From positions 1 to 45,029 of the forward strand of contig JAOUOR010000007.1 of NCBI GenBank assembly GCA_029880245.1: a stretch of 45,029 bases of DNA. Reading direction: 5' to 3'. This document shows, piece after piece, positions 1,703 to 23,056 of the stretch; position 1 is the stretch's first letter; each line of letters starts with the position of its first letter. The translations under genes were made by a program, and so were the position numbers. Below the pieces are notes generated by a model. It had not been told where the DNA came from and did not search any database. It saw nothing but the letters and a program-made list of their open reading frames with translations. This stretch comes from Alphaproteobacteria bacterium (GTDB taxonomy: Bacteria > Pseudomonadota > Alphaproteobacteria > Micavibrionales > Micavibrionaceae).

Positions 1703-2187
1703 AGCTTTTCACAACGCTCAATTTGTTGAGACGGCATACGATCGATCATATCTGAAACACTTTGCCCTGTTACAGGGTGTACCCAATCCGGTGCAATTTC
1801 CTGCAAGGGGTACAAGACAAAGGCACGATCATGGAATCTAGGATGCGGTAATATAGGATCCTCACCTGATATCCTGTCATCATAAGCTATAATATCAAGA
1901 TCAAGTGTTCTGGCTGCGTTTATTTCATGTCTCATACGCCCAAAACTCAGTTCGATCTCATGCAGTTTTTTGAGCAGCTGGGAAGGTGTATAGATCGTAC
2001 TAACACTACATACTGCATTTCTATACCAAGGTTGATCTGATGCCGGCACAGGCGCGGATTTCCATATGGAAGATACAGATATGATTTTGATACCATTTTC
2101 TTCAAAATGCTTTAGGCATAAACGAAGTGTTTCCTCCGGAGAATGTCCTTTAAAATCCAGATTTGCACCAAGTCCTATAATAATCAT
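1693..2187 (-). CDS. folK: 2-amino-4-hydroxy-6-hydroxymethyldihydropteridine pyrophosphokinase
   Basis: FolK transfers pyrophosphate from ATP to 6-hydroxymethyl-7,8-dihydropterin, making the substrate of the adjacent FolP. The 164-residue protein has the N-terminal strand IIGLGANL, the RTLDLDIIAYDD block with the Mg-binding aspartates (near residue 95) and the family signature LPHPRFHDRAFVLYPL (near 112). It is the first gene of the folK-folP pair and starts 15 bases downstream of the MepK-like gene, also on the minus strand, so all three could be cotranscribed. Confidence 0.95.
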   Translation of the reverse strand: MIIIGLGANLDFKGHSPEETLRLCLKHFEENGIKIISVSSIWKSAPVPASDQPWYRNAVCSVSTIYTPSQLLKKLHEIELSFGRMRHEINAARTLDLDIIAYDDRISGEDPILPHPRFHDRAFVLYPLQEIAPDWVHPVTGQSVSDMIDRMPSQQIERCEKLCA

Positions 2188-2202
2188 TTTGGGAAATGTT
2201 TT

Positions 2203-2814
2203 TTATGATGTCCAGTTACGCGGTTTACCGGTATCAATATGCACAAAATTACTGCGTGGATAGTAACCAACACCACCAGCTCTAAGACTTTGCGCCGTAT
2301 TACGCAGTTTTTTTGTACTCATACCAGGTAGCCGAATATCAAGAGCCTGCCCATACATATGGAAAGAATTAGAAGCCACACCATTTGTATTACGTCTTAG
2401 CATTGCATTAGTCTTAGGGCTACGGTAGCCGGAAAGGATATGGAAAGGCACTTTGGCTCTCATTTTTTGATGTAAGACCGTGATAATATCCAGAATATGC
2501 GGGTCCATAGGAAATACTTCATCTGTTCTAAAATCACGGAGAACATAATTAATACGCTCAAAAGCATCCGGTAAATATTTATCACCAACACGATACACAC
2601 CAGAAAAACTCTCATCCGTATGGGCGTTACGAAAAGATGTTTTCCATGCCCCTTTATTTTTAGCAGCCTGAGCAGAAGTGGGCATAAGCAACGGCGTAGC
2701 CATAGAAACAATGCCAACCATACCGTATTTCAATAGATTACGTCTTTGTATTAGAAGTGACTCGTCTGTATTATCCGTTGAAAAGAAAGAATTGGACATC
2801 AGTTTATGCAACAT
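2203..2814 (-). CDS. MepK/YcbK-like murein endopeptidase (DUF882, M15 family), Tat-type signal
   Basis: This 203-residue protein belongs to the DUF882/YcbK group of M15 zinc peptidases. E. coli MepK cleaves meso-DAP-meso-DAP (3-3) crosslinks in peptidoglycan. The N-terminus has a twin-arginine motif (RRNLLKYG, near residue 25) followed by a hydrophobic stretch and AQA|AK, suggesting Tat export. Zinc ligands are seen in SFHMYGQALDIRL (His and Asp, near residue 150) and NFVHID (near 190), with the family LSGYRSPKTN block near 124. The ATG at 2814 has AGAGG about seven bases upstream. The gene directly upstream on the same strand encodes an LdtD-like transpeptidase, which makes the crosslinks this family cuts. 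Confidence 0.85.
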   Translation of the reverse strand: MLHKLMSNSFFSTDNTDESLLIQRRNLLKYGMVGIVSMATPLLMPTSAQAAKNKGAWKTSFRNAHTDESFSGVYRVGDKYLPDAFERINYVLRDFRTDEVFPMDPHILDIITVLHQKMRAKVPFHILSGYRSPKTNAMLRRNTNGVASNSFHMYGQALDIRLPGMSTKKLRNTAQSLRAGGVGYYPRSNFVHIDTGKPRNWTS

Positions 2815-2941
2815 TACAACCTCTGTTCTCAGGTGCTTAAAAATCCATGCATATTCACTTACACAGTGAAATTTTACAAATAATAAAATATAATTATCTA
2901 CAGGAATCCCTGCAGTGAGTAAAGTGACAAAAAATTCACAG

Positions 2942-2964
2942 AAAAAACAAAAGAGCGCCCGCTC
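2942..2964 (-). terminator. Terminator immediately after the L,D-transpeptidase gene
   Basis: On the minus strand a GAGCG-GG-CGCTC hairpin (2953-2964), starting two bases beyond the stop codon, is followed by TTTTGTTTTTTC. It separates the transpeptidase gene from the MepK-like gene 150 bp downstream, so the latter may have its own promoter or depend on read-through. The loop is very short, so the hairpin may open at its apex. Confidence 0.6.
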
Positions 2965-2965
2965 C

Positions 2966-4627
2966 TTATAATTTATTCACACTTTTCTCAGCTATAATTT
3001 CATTATGATGTAAATTTGAAAATCCGTCAAGCTTTTCGAGGAGTTGCCACAGTTTCTTATCATGATCGTATATATCCATGCCATAAATAATTTGATTCTT
3101 ATCCCCAAGCCATACGGTGTTGTACAAAAGAAATACGGGAATAGTGTCCTGAATAAACTTATCTGTGGCTTCTCCGGCCTTCAAAATATCAATCATATCT
3201 TCGCTTCGCCAGCCCTTGTTTTGTTTCATAATAAAATCTGCAACTTTTTCAGGATACATCATACGAATACAGCCTGAGGATTGCGCCCTATTCGAACGGG
3301 AGAATAATCCGGGATGGTTCGTGTCATGAAGGTATATATTATATTCATTCGGCATAAGAACTCTAATACGGCCCAATGGATTATGGTCGCCGGAAGTCTG
3401 TACCATCGTATAGTTTCCAAGTTCTTCCGGACTTAAATTTGACCAGTCAACGCTGGAAGGGTCAATTGTAATATCTCCGTCCTCGGACTTTTGAAAAATC
3501 TCCATACCTTTATCCACTAGATAGGAATTATTCTCGACCAGTTCCGGAACAATATCTTCCTTCTTGATAGTCGAAGGGACAGTCCATTTGGGGTTAAAGC
3601 GCACGCCATTGATCTGAGCGACAAAAGACTCTGTAGGTCGATCTTTGCGCCCAATAATCACAGGCATTTCGTGAATAACTCTCCCATTTTCAATAGCCCA
3701 GAGCATGGCTGAAGGTAAATTAACCACGATAAAACTCTTGGGCTTTTTCTCTTCGATCCATCTTAAACGCTCGAGATTTACAATGATTTGCCTGATATTT
3801 TCGCCACGAATTTTATTCAAAGCAGATTCTGTCCGTTTTCCAATTATACCGTCAGATCTTAAACCATTGCCTTTTTGAAAATTCTTTACGGCCTCAACAA
3901 GCTTTGGGTCATAGGTTAATTTCTCGTCTTCTGGCATAGGTGGTAAGTTAAAATGTGACCGCAAAATTGGGATAGCATCGTCTTCGCGTCCGGGGTGAAG
4001 AATTTTATCAAAATAAATTGGTCTGATATCCTTATTTCCGGCTTTTTCATATAGCCGTACAAGTTCAGTCTTGAGTGTTTGATAGGTGCGCCCCTGCGGC
4101 TCGGATTCCAACAAGAATTCAGCAATATTTTTATAGTGCTCTTTTAAATCCAGCAAAGCCTCATCCACAGAAATTCTCTGCTTCCAATCACCTTGGCGAA
4201 GATTCATATCTTCAAGACTTATACGCATTCCACTAATATCGCGGCGATACCTGATATAGGCATCCGTTATAAGCATTTCAAGGATCTGCGTATGATTTCC
4301 CTTGGCTCTTGATGTCATGTCCTCGGAACCTATAAGATCAATAATTTCGTCAATATGGTAATTCTTCGGGTTTAAACCATTCATCCACGATTGCTGCAAT
4401 ACGGTCATTAAATCCTGAGCTTCACTGTTAAGCTTTTTTCTTTTGACCCAAAGCGGTTCACCATCGCGCTCGGCTAAAAAGGCGCTTATCGCCTCTTCAT
4501 CAGATAAACTAACCTGTAGGTCCTGAAGGTCATGGGCCATAGCCTGCGAGCACTGGAGAAAAAATATTCCCAGACACAAAAACCAGATTAATAAAGCCCG
4601 ATTATTATTCACAAGTTTTCCCCGCAT
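2966..4627 (-). CDS. YcbB/LdtD-type L,D-transpeptidase
   Basis: This 553-residue exported protein forms 3-3 crosslinks in peptidoglycan, judging by family. A signal-type segment (ALLIWFLCLGIFFLQC, near residues 11-26) is followed by a scaffold domain, a peptidoglycan-binding repeat (VEAVKNFQKGNGLRSDGIIG, near 250) and a YkuD catalytic domain starting near residue 300. The catalytic block contains YLHDTNHPGLFSRSNRAQSS followed by GCIRM, with the nucleophilic cysteine in SSGCIR. A cysteine in the signal segment (LQCSQ) could hint at lipidation, but the lipobox is poor. The gene is divergent from hisS and upstream of the MepK-like gene, the same order as ycbB-ycbK in E. coli. Confidence 0.92.
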   Translation of the reverse strand: MRGKLVNNNRALLIWFLCLGIFFLQCSQAMAHDLQDLQVSLSDEEAISAFLAERDGEPLWVKRKKLNSEAQDLMTVLQQSWMNGLNPKNYHIDEIIDLIGSEDMTSRAKGNHTQILEMLITDAYIRYRRDISGMRISLEDMNLRQGDWKQRISVDEALLDLKEHYKNIAEFLLESEPQGRTYQTLKTELVRLYEKAGNKDIRPIYFDKILHPGREDDAIPILRSHFNLPPMPEDEKLTYDPKLVEAVKNFQKGNGLRSDGIIGKRTESALNKIRGENIRQIIVNLERLRWIEEKKPKSFIVVNLPSAMLWAIENGRVIHEMPVIIGRKDRPTESFVAQINGVRFNPKWTVPSTIKKEDIVPELVENNSYLVDKGMEIFQKSEDGDITIDPSSVDWSNLSPEELGNYTMVQTSGDHNPLGRIRVLMPNEYNIYLHDTNHPGLFSRSNRAQSSGCIRMMYPEKVADFIMKQNKGWRSEDMIDILKAGEATDKFIQDTIPVFLLYNTVWLGDKNQIIYGMDIYDHDKKLWQLLEKLDGFSNLHHNEIIAEKSVNKL

Positions 4628-4788: not shown

Positions 4789-6180
4789 ATGAACAAGAAT
4801 GATAAGAAAAAAATCTATAAGCCAAAGCAAATCAGCGGCTTTCCGGAATGGTTGCCGGAAATCCGGCGTACGGAATTACTGTGGTTTGATCACATCCGCA
4901 CAACATTTGAAAGCTATGGTTTTTGTCCGATTGAAACCCCCAGCGTGGAAGAGCTTGATGCAATCAATGCCAAGGGCGGCGATGGAGAGGCGGATGTTGA
5001 TAAAGAGGTTTATGTATTAGAGCGGTTGCACAAGGAAGACGGTGATAAAGAAGCACGCCTTGCGCTACATTTTGACCAGACTGTTCCCCTTGCCCGTTAT
5101 ACGGCCCAGCATTTCAATGATCTGGTTTTTCCGTTTAAGCGTTATCAGATGCAGCGTGTCTGGCGCGGTGAACGTCCGCAGGCAGGCCGTTTCCGTGAAT
5201 TTTATCAGTGTGATATTGACGTGATTAATGTCGACACCCTGCCCTTGCACTTTGATGCGGAAATGCCTGCTATCATCTGGGAAATTCTAAGCTCCCTCCC
5301 CGGCATGGAAAATGAGAAGATTCAGATACGGATTTCAAATCGGAAGATTTTGATGGGGTTGCTTCAGGCTTGCGGCGTTTCAGATGTCCAAAAATATACA
5401 TCGCTAATTGATAAATTGGAAAAAATAGGAAATGAAGAAGTAGAAATAGGATTAAAACTTAACTTAAGACTAGATGAACTTCATGAAGACTTCGCTAATC
5501 TTTTTTTAGATCTGGCGGAAATAAAGACTGCAAAAGGACTTTCTGGATTGCTTCGTGATTTCATCACTCGCAATGACGTCATTGCGAGGAGCGTCAGTGA
5601 CGAAGCAATCCAGATAATGCAAGAAGGCATAGAGGAACTCGCCTTCGTACTCGATCAACTCTCCCACCTACCAGAAGGGTCTGTTGTGGCTGATCTTTCC
5701 ATCGTGCGCGGGCTTGATTACTATACAGGCACAGTCTATGAGACAGTCTTCACAGATGATCCTGCTTACGGCTCGATCTGCTCCGGCGGGCGGTATGATG
5801 ATCTGGCAAGTAATTACATCAACAAAAAGCTCCCTGGTGTTGGTATATCCATCGGCTTTTCAAGACTCTTTGACCGTATCCGCTCACAGGGAAAATTACC
5901 TAAGCTTGGCATTTCACCCGCAGATATTCTAATCTGCCTGCCGGAGGATGAAGCACGCGGCACGATGATGGAAACAGCCCAAACCTTACGCAAGAATGGT
6001 TATAAGGTCGAGACCTTCCATAGCGCCTCAAAAATCAAAAGACAACTTGCATATGCCGAGAAAAAAGGGATACCTTATGTATGGTTTCCGCCCTTTAGCG
6101 GCAATCCCGACCATGAAGTTAAAAACATGCTGGATGGTACGCAAAGCAAGGCCGATCCACAAAACTGGAAAGACAATTGA
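4789..6180 (+). CDS. hisS: Histidyl-tRNA synthetase with an in-frame palindromic insertion
   Basis: This class II synthetase charges tRNA-His and has 463 residues. Motif 2 is in VWRGERPQAGRFREFYQCD, preceded by FPFKRYQMQR. The histidine-binding signature VRGLDYYTG is near residue 306, followed by CSGGRYDDL and the motif 3-like GVGISIGFSRLF. The wording of motif 2 and CSGGRYDDL resembles the actinobacterial-type HisRS more than the E. coli type; this is from memory of the families. Bases 5543-5613 are a long palindrome that adds about 24 residues including NDVIARSVSDEAIQ without breaking the frame. The next gene starts within the hisS stop codon (TGATG), suggesting coupling. Confidence 0.95.
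   Translation: MNKNDKKKIYKPKQISGFPEWLPEIRRTELLWFDHIRTTFESYGFCPIETPSVEELDAINAKGGDGEADVDKEVYVLERLHKEDGDKEARLALHFDQTVPLARYTAQHFNDLVFPFKRYQMQRVWRGERPQAGRFREFYQCDIDVINVDTLPLHFDAEMPAIIWEILSSLPGMENEKIQIRISNRKILMGLLQACGVSDVQKYTSLIDKLEKIGNEEVEIGLKLNLRLDELHEDFANLFLDLAEIKTAKGLSGLLRDFITRNDVIARSVSDEAIQIMQEGIEELAFVLDQLSHLPEGSVVADLSIVRGLDYYTGTVYETVFTDDPAYGSICSGGRYDDLASNYINKKLPGVGISIGFSRLFDRIRSQGKLPKLGISPADILICLPEDEARGTMMETAQTLRKNGYKVETFHSASKIKRQLAYAEKKGIPYVWFPPFSGNPDHEVKNMLDGTQSKADPQNWKDN
5543..5613. repeat. 71-bp palindromic element inside hisS
   Basis: The outer arms are a perfect 14-bp inverted repeat (CTGGATTGCTTCGT at 5543-5556 and its complement at 5600-5613). The centre is a perfect 22-bp palindrome (CTCGCAATGAC and its complement). 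The right half has the widespread ATTGCGAGGAGCG...GACGAAGCAATCC wording of bacterial intergenic repeats. It is translated as roughly residues 252-275 of HisS, like the protein-coding palindromic elements (RPE) of Rickettsia. Confidence 0.9.
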
Positions 6181-18925: not shown

Positions 18926-19414
18926 GTTTTCTTTAGTTCGTTTGCTTTTTTCAAAAAATAAAAACGTAAGTTATTGTTTTTCAATGATATCCCTTTAGTT
19001 TGTTTGTTAAAGGGCTTCTCGGATTTGTACAGTTCGTTTTCGCGTTTTAAAAAATTCCCGCCCATGTCTTTAATAGTTTGTTCCGGCGTTTTCATTTTTG
19101 CTTTTTTTTGGTTTATTATGTTTTTTCAATAGGTTAACGAAAACCACCCTTAGTAACTTTTCGTCATTACACGGCGTGTCATGACGTTTGGGTTCGGGTG
19201 GGGTTTGCTGTGTGGATGACATAAACATGCAGGCATAATAGGATAATATTCCTGTTTTGTCAAGATTCTGTTGTCATCCCCGCGAAAGCGGGGATCTGGT
19301 GGATAAGAAAAAGAGATCCCTGCTTACGCAGGGATGACAGTCTTTTTTTACCACGAAGACACAAATGAACGCGAATATTCTTTCGGTCGTCATCGCCTGA
19401 ATGTAGGAGACATT
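18926..19414. other. 489-bp gene-free stretch with hairpins and a repeat
   Basis: No convincing gene is seen. The first 200 bases are T-rich on this strand and include a 7-bp hairpin (CCCTTTA/TAAAGGG, 18991-19014). CGTCAT...ATGACG arms lie around 19163-19187. The right part holds a GTCATCCC-type palindromic repeat (19273-19339) and a CCACGAAGACACAAA-type tail. Confidence 0.7.
19273..19339. repeat. Paired GTCATCCC palindromic repeat, copy 1
   Basis: The left hairpin GTCATCCCCGCGAAAGCGGG with ATCT and the right hairpin AGATCCCTGCTTACGCAGGG with ATGAC are head-to-head. The outer ends GTCAT/ATGAC are inverted. The same architecture recurs at 20235 and 36372. It is followed by a T-run and ACCACGAAGACACAAATGAA (19350 on). 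Confidence 0.85.
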
Positions 19415-20532: not shown

Positions 20533-20583
20533 GAGCTTTTCTTACCACGAATGGACACAAATGAACGCGAATACACACTTATC

Positions 20584-20682
20584 GTCATTCCCTGAATCCA
20601 CGTTAAGTGGATTCTAAGGGAATCTATTAATTTTATAGATCGCCCTAGAATCTGCTGAACGCAGATTCAGGCGATGACGATA
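20584..20682. repeat. GTCATTCCCTGAATCC repeat, copy 2, joined to a second hairpin
   Basis: The copy of the 20349 element (GTCATTCCCTGAATCCACGT...AAGGGAATC) is followed by an AGAATCTGC-TGAAC-GCAGATTCA hairpin and GGCGATGAC. The whole unit starts with GTCAT and ends with ATGAC, so it may be one composite element. Confidence 0.75.
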
Positions 20683-20694
20683 CAAAGATAGGCC

Positions 20695-22158
20695 TTATTC
20701 CATAATGATCTTATACAACGCGCCGGATTGAACATTTTCAGCAGGGGCAAGCCCGTTCAGAACACGGAACCTGTCTTGTGCATATTCTTTTACAGCCATT
20801 TTGGAGGCTAAAGATGAGACGCTGTCGCCGGAACCGGCTCTGACCAGTTTTATTTTATAGGGTTTCAGGCTTTGCTTCTCAGGAGCGCTTAAGCGTCTGA
20901 AACTATATGTTGTCCTTTTTAGGTCCTCAAGTAAATCTCCGGAGAGGTTTTTAGGCATTGCCACTTGAAAACGCACAAAATCCTGCGGCGACCATTGAAT
21001 GGCTATAAGCTGGATACTTACTTCCTGCCCGTTAATTTGGCCAAGCACAGAGCCGGAAGCCGCGCGCATACCATTTATAGTAATAGCCTCTATATTATGG
21101 ACATCCCTATTCTTCATCCAGACATCGCGCATATAAAGAGACGGAGAAACGCCCTTCTCATTTTTGGACATATCAAAAATAATCACAACATCCTTTCGCG
21201 GCCCCACAGAAACAACTTGTTCAGGCTGATTAATCAACCGAAACCCCTGAGGTACAGAAAACGTAAAGCCCATATCAGGATGATAAAAATTATTGCCCTT
21301 GGCAAAGCCTTGATGAGGACTATCGCCATAAACCATGCCTTGAATTTTATTTAAAAAGCCCTCGCGATTAATAACACCTTGCTGTGGGTATGCACTATTT
21401 TCCTGCATCGTTGCTGTAATGCGCTGGGCTGTGACCGGGTGAGTGGATAAATAGCTCGCGGCGGGGTCACCGCCTTTTCCATCGATTTTGTTTTCTAGCG
21501 CCGTATCCGCATCCAGATTTTTAAGAAACCCCGTCATACCATAAGGATGAAAGCCTGCCCTGCTGAGGTATCGAATACCGAGACTATCAGATTGGCTTTC
21601 CTGCCCTCTGGAATAGGATTTTAAATAGAGTTCAGCCCCCAGTCCAAAAACCTGTTCATCAACTCCAATTGCCGCAGATAAAATTGATGCCCCCAACCCT
21701 GTTACGACACCACGGGAATATCGCTCGGCAGAATGGCGTGCCGTGATATGACCGGCTTCATGCGCCAGAACTGCTGCCATCTCGGCTTCGTTATTGGCCA
21801 GAGCTAAAAGCCCGCGCGACATATAAATATACCCCCCCGGCAAAGCAAACGCATTAACAACAGGGCTATCAACAACAAAGAATTTATACTGAACGTCTTT
21901 ACGCTCGGTATGAGCAACGACTTTTTGTCCGACCTGAGAGACATAGGATTGCAGGGCCGGATCATTATAAAGACCGAATTGTTTAATGACTTTTTGATGT
22001 TCCTGCGCGCCGATTTGGTTTTCCTGCGTCGGGGACATCAATGCTGTAAATTGTTTCTGTCCGGTTGCCGGATTAGTTGTACATGATGCCAGAAATGGTA
22101 TAGTGACTATCAACAGGAACTTTAAACGGAATTGTTTTATCATAAGTCGCTTCTTCAT
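20695..22158 (-). CDS. Lipoprotein M48-family metalloprotease with C-terminal LysM-like region
   Basis: The product of about 487 residues starts with a lipoprotein signal ending FLASC|TT, so it is anchored in the envelope. The zinc site HEAGH (HExxH, near residue 134) and the downstream glutamate in QESQSDSLG give the M48 active site. THPVTAQRI near residue 240 is a family hallmark. After a middle domain, the C-terminus has SGDSVSSLASKMAVKEYAQD, resembling a LysM glycan-binding repeat. Relatives such as BepA handle outer-membrane protein quality control. ATG 22164 (AGAGG upstream) and ATG 22158 are both possible starts. Its 5' end touches the divergent SNase-like gene, with overlapping start regions. 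Confidence 0.88.
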   Translation of the reverse strand: MKKRLMIKQFRLKFLLIVTIPFLASCTTNPATGQKQFTALMSPTQENQIGAQEHQKVIKQFGLYNDPALQSYVSQVGQKVVAHTERKDVQYKFFVVDSPVVNAFALPGGYIYMSRGLLALANNEAEMAAVLAHEAGHITARHSAERYSRGVVTGLGASILSAAIGVDEQVFGLGAELYLKSYSRGQESQSDSLGIRYLSRAGFHPYGMTGFLKNLDADTALENKIDGKGGDPAASYLSTHPVTAQRITATMQENSAYPQQGVINREGFLNKIQGMVYGDSPHQGFAKGNNFYHPDMGFTFSVPQGFRLINQPEQVVSVGPRKDVVIIFDMSKNEKGVSPSLYMRDVWMKNRDVHNIEAITINGMRAASGSVLGQINGQEVSIQLIAIQWSPQDFVRFQVAMPKNLSGDLLEDLKRTTYSFRRLSAPEKQSLKPYKIKLVRAGSGDSVSSLASKMAVKEYAQDRFRVLNGLAPAENVQSGALYKIIME

Positions 22159-23056
22159 GATCATCTCAGCCTCTAAAAACAGGGTTATCTTAGCTTTTTT
22201 AAAGTATATTGCCAGTGTTTTTATCGTTACATTCTGTGTTAGCTCCTTTCCATTGTCTAATGTATATGCGCAGGAAGAAAGGACGATAAGCCCGCCTGAC
22301 TTCTCTTCTCTATTCGAGGATAAAGGCGGAATTGTTGCACGTGTTGTTGACCCTTTGACCTTGCAGATGAAAGATGGCCGTATTTTAAATCTGGCAGGTA
22401 TGGATTTTCCGGATCTGGATTATCACCAGCCCGGACCTCTTTCCGTACTTGCCGTCAAGATTATGAGAGACATGCTGGAGAATACACAGGTCAAGATATA
22501 CCAGAACAACAATAATGAAGAATCCCGCCTTAACAGAATGGGACATTCTATATCCCACGTTGTCGTCCATAAGAACAGTCTGTGGGTTCAGGCTGTTTTG
22601 CTTCGCCTTGGGCTGGCGCGCGTCAGGACGACAGCCGATAATTATGATCTTGCTACGGAAATGTATGTTCATGAAGATTTCGCACGTTCGGAAAAATCAG
22701 GTCTGTGGAAAATCAGGGCCTATGACGTTCATGAGCCGGATAATGCCCATCTCTTCACAGATAATTTTGGTATTGTCGAAGGCACAGTTAAAAATGTCAG
22801 TATAAGGCAAGGACAAACCTTTATTAATTTTGGCGATAACTGGAAAAAAGATTTTACCCTCAGCATCTTGCGATCAAAACGCAAAGATTTTATGAAAGCA
22901 GGACTTGACCCCAGAGACTGGGGAGGTAAAAAAATTCGTGTACGTGGCTGGCTCAGAGATTATAATGGCCCGTATATTGAAATTGACCACCCCGAAGCAC
23001 TAGAGTTTCTTGACGTCAAGCAGGATAGTAAAACTGAAGAGAATACAAAAAAATAA
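22157..23056 (+). CDS. Secreted SNase (thermonuclease)-like protein
   Basis: The product of about 299 residues has a signal-type N-terminus (FIVTFCVSSFPLSNVYA) and an SNase-like OB-fold region. GGIVARVVDPLTLQMKDGR and LNLAGMDFPDLD correspond to the opening strands and the GID.P motif, and SRLNRMGHSISHVVV to the RY.R.L..V strand. Family catalytic residues (Arg, Glu, Arg) are not clearly all present, so nuclease activity is uncertain. A C-terminal second part (residues about 205-290) looks like another OB-type domain. ATG 22157 was chosen over 22103 because it gives a proper signal peptide. The neighbouring divergent M48 gene start overlaps it. Confidence 0.7.
   Translation: MIISASKNRVILAFLKYIASVFIVTFCVSSFPLSNVYAQEERTISPPDFSSLFEDKGGIVARVVDPLTLQMKDGRILNLAGMDFPDLDYHQPGPLSVLAVKIMRDMLENTQVKIYQNNNNEESRLNRMGHSISHVVVHKNSLWVQAVLLRLGLARVRTTADNYDLATEMYVHEDFARSEKSGLWKIRAYDVHEPDNAHLFTDNFGIVEGTVKNVSIRQGQTFINFGDNWKKDFTLSILRSKRKDFMKAGLDPRDWGGKKIRVRGWLRDYNGPYIEIDHPEALEFLDVKQDSKTEENTKK

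Follow-up and report, generated by a model that had tools for sequence, protein, structure and literature searches.

The window, a stretch of 45,029 nucleotides of DNA, contains hisS, the gene for histidyl-tRNA synthetase (HisRS), at positions 4789–6180 of the plus strand. It is an uninterrupted open reading frame whose product, of 463 amino acids, matches the profile TIGR00442 with 345 bits against a cut-off of 287. Within the gene is a near-palindrome of 71 bp (5543–5613), and the codons that it supplies in the hisS frame, 252–275 (5542–5613), specify SGLLRDFITRNDVIARSVSDEAIQ. A preliminary description had reported a 71-bp palindrome with a 22-bp perfect centre, translated in frame within this essential synthetase, and coordinates and sequence bear this out; the outer arms, given there as 14 bp, are 15 bp long, that at 5542–5556 being perfectly complementary to that at 5600–5614. 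The 22-bp perfect palindrome (5567–5588) is the meeting point of two REP-like units that abut head-to-head with no spacer. The left unit (5543–5577, 35 bp) reads GTCATTGCGAG..GCAATCCAG on the minus strand and has the inner stem GTGAT/ATCAC; the right unit (5578–5613, 36 bp) lies on the plus strand (GTCATTGCGAGGAGCGTCAGTGACGAAGCAATCCAG) and shares the form GTCATTGCGAG...GCAATCCAG.

The predicted RNA fold of 5540–5616 has a free energy of −43.2 kcal/mol (z = −8.5), a value reached by none of 200 dinucleotide shuffles. When 102 hisS coding sequences were scanned for hairpins, that of the window scored 15 against a maximum of 11 in 60 codon-shuffled controls. Seven of the 102 rows exceed the control maximum (the window's own genome, listed as OWN, with G123, G096, G074, G089, G119 and G094), the G094 hairpin being native conserved sequence. 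The sensitivity of the scan within the family is four out of the six genes that carry the element; carrier G058 scored 10 and carrier G066 is outside the top 25. A match of the palindrome to the RNA family mir-2040, at 20.3 bits against a threshold of 51, is taken as chance. The palindrome sits in the stretch before the RGLDYYTG motif of HisRS, which we take to be the insertion domain. By sequence alignment the site corresponds to the stretch preceding this conserved motif in solved HisRS such as 3net; an AlphaFold2 model built with six sequences (pLDDT 41.5, pTM 0.29) was set aside.

The family sample comprises 104 genomes, which were searched with the 71-bp query, up to eight candidates being scored per genome. 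The full-length matches listed are those of the window and of G058, G123, G074, G119 and G066. All are in hisS, with identical place, frame and orientation. A search of 142 genomes of the order with 33 residues of the protein returned the identical six carriers. The core palindrome, with up to 2 mismatches, is present in seven of the 104 family genomes, six times in hisS and once, in G022 with 2 mismatches, outside it; a left-unit variant, with up to 3 mismatches, occurs in six, always in hisS. An exact 30-base pattern, which diverged copies would escape, has five matches among 84,980 species genomes, all in the hisS genes of metagenome-assembled genomes (OFTM372, PL24a_bin.34, L3_Bin_METABAT__146_1, Go_SlAct_bin_278 and HKST-UBA27). 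Four of the matching frames contain the full carrier protein (of G123, G058, G119 and G074); the fifth is truncated where its locus ends and is most similar to G066.

By the genus labels of the search the six carriers represent six genera, and non-carriers are present in every carrier genus with more than one aligned member. Native hisS forms lacking the element are seen in the order outgroups and in many of the genomes that do not carry it. G006, at 82% identity the nearest relative identified, also lacks it, in agreement with the earlier designation of the element as an insertion. The insertion is not an isolated one: six genera have this composite at the one hisS position. (hisS was found in 96 family genomes, of which 94 were aligned; G031 and G035, outside the alignment, were covered by the family and order searches for the element.)

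Single units are more widely distributed. Matches to the 71-bp query at E≤1e-4 occur in 49 of the 104 family genomes and, among the matches listed, are mostly to one half. At 21 of 24 non-hisS unit loci, one per genome, no open reading frame of more than 150 amino acids spans the unit. The idea that the palindrome is of a type normally found between genes holds for its units and is not borne out for the intact 71-bp composite, of which no intergenic example was seen among the matches listed, or among the core and left-unit pattern matches, in the 104 family genomes. The exact 11-base head has two additional occurrences in the window's genome, each on contig C1. Two single units lie near other hisS genes. 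In G022 a REP-like unit match (locus L014; G022:C17:219785-219819) is two bases past the end of the hisS match. In locus L083 the next open reading frame downstream of hisS (2102–2797, plus strand) has RHCEGATATAAIQ within its opening stretch; this appears to be a unit that is either read in a different frame or located ahead of the real start.

The CGTC-tagged REPs described by Di Nocera (2013; PMC3733652, available in part) are mostly intergenic, though some are intragenic, including in tRNA synthetases, and in two Xanthomonas recB genes they are at about the same site. Families 1–4 of that work have a CGTC (or TGTC/CCTC) tag, a stem of 8–9 bp with a loop of 4–5, AT as first stem residues and a CCA-type tail, and head-to-head dimers predominate among them. 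Both hisS units start CGTCATTGC, their tags sharing the CG at GACGTC, and ATTGC..GCAAT followed by CCA is present in 12 of the 12 units of the six copies. The hairpin departs from the published format in having a 5-bp stem, an asymmetric interior loop, an inner stem of 4–5 bp and a 3-nt loop. The head-to-head arrangement of the published dimers is that of the hisS copies, in which, unlike in those REPs, the heads overlap and the composite is found in one gene only. At the 24 non-hisS loci an exact-pattern search gave 12 tail-to-tail pairs, 10 single units, one head-to-head pair with a 38-bp gap and one locus with none. REPs moved by RAYT transposases are paired palindromic units that are non-autonomous, as is the hisS composite. 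Matches to the Y1_Tnp transposase number zero in the window's genome, which by this measure has no resident RAYT; they occur in 34 of 125 relatives, with G058 and, weakly, G074 the carriers among them in a sample that may not hold all carriers. It is the GTAG REPs that are tied to RAYTs in the account of PMC3733652.

A source for the composite was sought more widely. The left unit, allowing up to 3 mismatches, does not recur elsewhere in the 104 family genomes, and its exact sequence is absent from the viral contigs searched; phages gave no match to the element, and the five plasmid records with partial matches include none covering 80% of it. The core palindrome occurs in two viral contigs. 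That in L200 is probably a chance match, within a frame that is HNH-like by its motif. In L201, an IMG/VR contig, a related zero-spacer head-to-head dimer is in frame in the C-terminal part of an open reading frame (1833–3824, minus strand) with a Mu-transpos_C match. In the class sample of 385 genomes the core at 1 mismatch is found in two, the window's and G146. A search of that sample for the composite, with up to two candidates scored per genome, gave only looser head-to-head relatives, which lie between genes in G146 and G503, of two other families, the former with no spacer and 89% identity over 47 nt, the latter with a short spacer and 81% identity. Judging from their translations, the frames flanking the G146 copy are presumably recF-like and gyrB-like, and those flanking the G503 copy pdhA-like and eno-like.

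The six hisS copies are 0.90–0.97 identical in pairwise comparison, whereas the rest of their coding sequences, with the element columns left out, are 0.61–0.70 identical. Every pair has some other 24-codon window that reaches 0.82–0.92, so that identity of the element alone is not unique; it is the silent sites that stand out. Fourfold sites outside the element are 0.28–0.48 identical among the carriers; inside it they agree throughout in 11 pairs (7/7 to 10/10) and with one mismatch in four. Pooled pS is 0.131 in the element and 0.753 outside, and pooled pN 0.061 and 0.236. With the six copies set on the two-hairpin fold, 93.9% of cells pair, and in three pairs, two in the left inner stem and one in the right, both partners differ between copies with pairing preserved, a score matched by 9 of 500 shuffles. 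Four of the six copies have a broken pair in the right inner stem, and in the alternative single long hairpin none of 27 pairs is doubly changed. These changes, in six sequences, weakly support the units having been maintained as units, before or after insertion.

The site lies just ahead of an xxxEGIEEL stretch in a variable segment of HisRS, and the boundaries of the element agree within one codon in all six carriers. It is preceded by IK or IR and six residues in five of the six (five residues in the window), and followed after three residues by EG in five of the six (four residues in G123). From IK to EG the carriers have 32–34 residues, and the commonest native spacing is 21, found in 18 of the 102 rows; ten of these belong to a single genus, and the anchor is missing from 32 rows. 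In the comparison with relatives suggested earlier, the net gain over this commonest spacing is 11 residues in the window and 12–13 in the other five carriers. That the palindrome adds about 24 residues is right in that it spans 24 codons, and incomplete in that these occupy the place of what are often about 12 native residues, present in many relatives and absent from the carriers. The 12-residue native form is the commonest largely through one genus. A clean insertion without loss fits only a recipient with a short form, such as that of G006 or G009. No target-site duplication of common length was found among the six carriers; apparent duplications are confined to G074 (6 of 6 bp) and G123 (8 of 9 bp) and differ in length, and with a 71-bp element either would break the frame. 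The 15 nt on either side match on average at 7.1 (left) and 8.1 (right) positions among the carriers, and at 6.8 and 8.9 among 15 natives. The pair G074 and G066 is alike at 12 of 15 nt on both flanks, the native maxima being 12 and 14.

Other sequences have also come to lie within hisS. In G089, of a seventh genus, a different, tail-to-tail dimer of REP type is in frame in the same segment; it consists of CGTCATTCCGGCGAAAGCCGGAATCCA and its near inverse, a CGTC-1 format matched by eye to PMC3733652 as available. Like the G123 element it ends four residues before EG, and its start is about 10 residues more distant from VK than that of the hisS element is from IK. The hisS of G096 (locus L176) has in-frame inverted repeats, rich in C and G, that separate WEVLSGL from FQIRVSNRK, near residues 167–201 (region about 160–205), a second kind of repeat at a different site. 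These two inserts point to a permissive gene segment. A hairpin scan of 37 hisS genes from outside the family (26 class and 11 order loci) found no REP-like insert, the top scores being 12, 12 and 11; one of the 12s (L051) is near the site and its sequence looks native. (The hisS protein search of the class reached 41 of the 385 genomes at E≤1e-60.) Residues 185–278 of hisS are very variable in relatives, with patchy native forms, one of which, DELxxAL..DTSN, accounts for 11 rows distributed over several genera and another family. For that long form, descent from a decayed element was rejected, as 416 of 1000 shuffles are at least as similar to the element.

A quick hisS tree of 100 rows was made with the palindrome segment removed (G088 and G097b were dropped). 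The six carriers are isolated tips, so that six changes are needed; a single gain would require about 30 losses. SH-aLRT support is 98 for the window's genome with G006, 99 for G058 with G059 and 100 each for the G119 and G066 groups, the placements of G123 and G074 being below 95.

The best explanation, at a probability of about 0.57, is that a head-to-head REP-like pair, CGTC-tagged and resembling Rickettsia palindromic elements (RPEs), inserted into hisS on more than one occasion, each time at one particular point in a variable HisRS segment. It draws on the near-identity of the element DNA against saturated silent sites in the rest of hisS, on the isolation of the tips and the losses demanded by a single gain, on flanks that are on average no more alike than those of natives, on the failure to find the composite elsewhere in the family genomes, and on boundaries, frame and orientation that recur in six genera, with a second type of repeat in G089. 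Each carrier lineage would have received the element separately and horizontally as a small mobile hairpin, which may have taken the place of about 12 native residues. It could persist where the segment tolerates foreign sequence, while entry in other frames or at other sites would kill an essential gene; in hisS it is probably neutral or mildly tolerated, not adaptive. A more specific form of the proposal is doubtful: that a 71-bp 'homing' hairpin with no protein of its own spreads between genera, inserts only at one hisS codon boundary, is translated and replaces the native connecting segment. Against repeated entry count the want of a donor copy in the sets searched and of a duplication that would keep the frame, the lack of a transposase link, with Y1_Tnp absent from the window's genome, and the quickness of the tree with its two weaker placements. 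The likeness of the G074 and G066 flanks counts against it too, and a single origin would also account for identical boundaries and for the absence of the 12 residues.

Such an origin, one ancient insertion inherited vertically, kept nearly constant by selection on the hairpin in DNA or RNA and lost in most lineages, is unlikely. The agreement of the boundaries and the three two-sided changes speak for it, as does the fact that the most similar copies, those of G058 and G066 (0.97), fall in one supported clade of 40 rows. The many losses that it requires are at odds with strong constraint, however, and the broken pairs of the right inner stem and the lack of double changes in the single long hairpin speak against it too; the order outgroups and many non-carriers have native forms, of which the one compared is no closer to the element than shuffles are. 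Exchange of an element-bearing hisS segment between genera by homologous recombination would accommodate the patchy native form shared by 11 rows, and the G074 and G066 flanks, but the mean identity of the flanks is not raised and silent sites outside the element are saturated, which makes it more improbable still. The five named carriers are metagenome-assembled and repeats break assemblies, so chimeric contigs from assembly or binning might be suspected. That is very improbable given that in five such genomes with different isolate names, and in the window, the element is flanked on either side by a distinct, diverged hisS sequence within a single open frame. As for an ordinary native HisRS sequence that is palindromic by chance, the length of the region does vary in relatives; the notion is scarcely credible and already contradicted by a hairpin far above shuffles and by the matches in 49 of the 104 family genomes, the majority of which involve one unit and, at the loci checked, lie mostly outside long open reading frames.

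The closest case described is that of RPE-4, RPE-6 and RPE-7 in the Rickettsia japonica paper (PMC3767692, available in part), and the likeness to RPEs drawn in the preliminary description is well founded: RPE-7 is present in PheRS beta and IleRS, and orthologs have insertions at the same site. In both systems short palindromic repeats are translated in frame in conserved genes at loci shared across orthologs, and as different RPE groups can be at one locus, so two repeat types are in the hisS segment. The RPE motif ATGAC, compared by eye, is also in the hisS element, on both strands at its centre. The RPEs are in at least 18 genes of Rickettsia, whereas the hisS composite is in one gene of six genera not labelled Rickettsia; unlike them, it is near-identical in DNA and absent from nearest relatives. 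The available parts of PMC3767692 and PMC3733652 contain no account of such an element being confined to a single gene, and literature searches, which took in both texts to that extent, found no case of a palindromic insert in hisS. RPE-4/6/7 were read in PMC3767692 as probably one old insertion. Its authors favoured a common origin, did not exclude hot spots, and left unsettled the choice between one old insertion and repeated hot-spot entry; the hisS case, with its near-identical element DNA against saturated silent sites, nearest relatives that lack the element and a second repeat type in the segment, makes that question testable. It also extends the occurrence of in-frame repeat DNA in an essential enzyme gene to other alphaproteobacteria.

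Two further repeats are found in the window. At 19272–19339, between two large open reading frames, is an inverted repeat, TGTCATCCCCGCGAAAGCGGGGATCT ... AGATCCCTGCTTACGCAGGGATGACA, near the format of a CGTC-1 REP dimer. At 20580–20682, just beyond the end of a minus-strand open reading frame (20695–22164), a 51-nt inverted repeat begins TATCGTCATTCCC and has its arms 1 nt apart.
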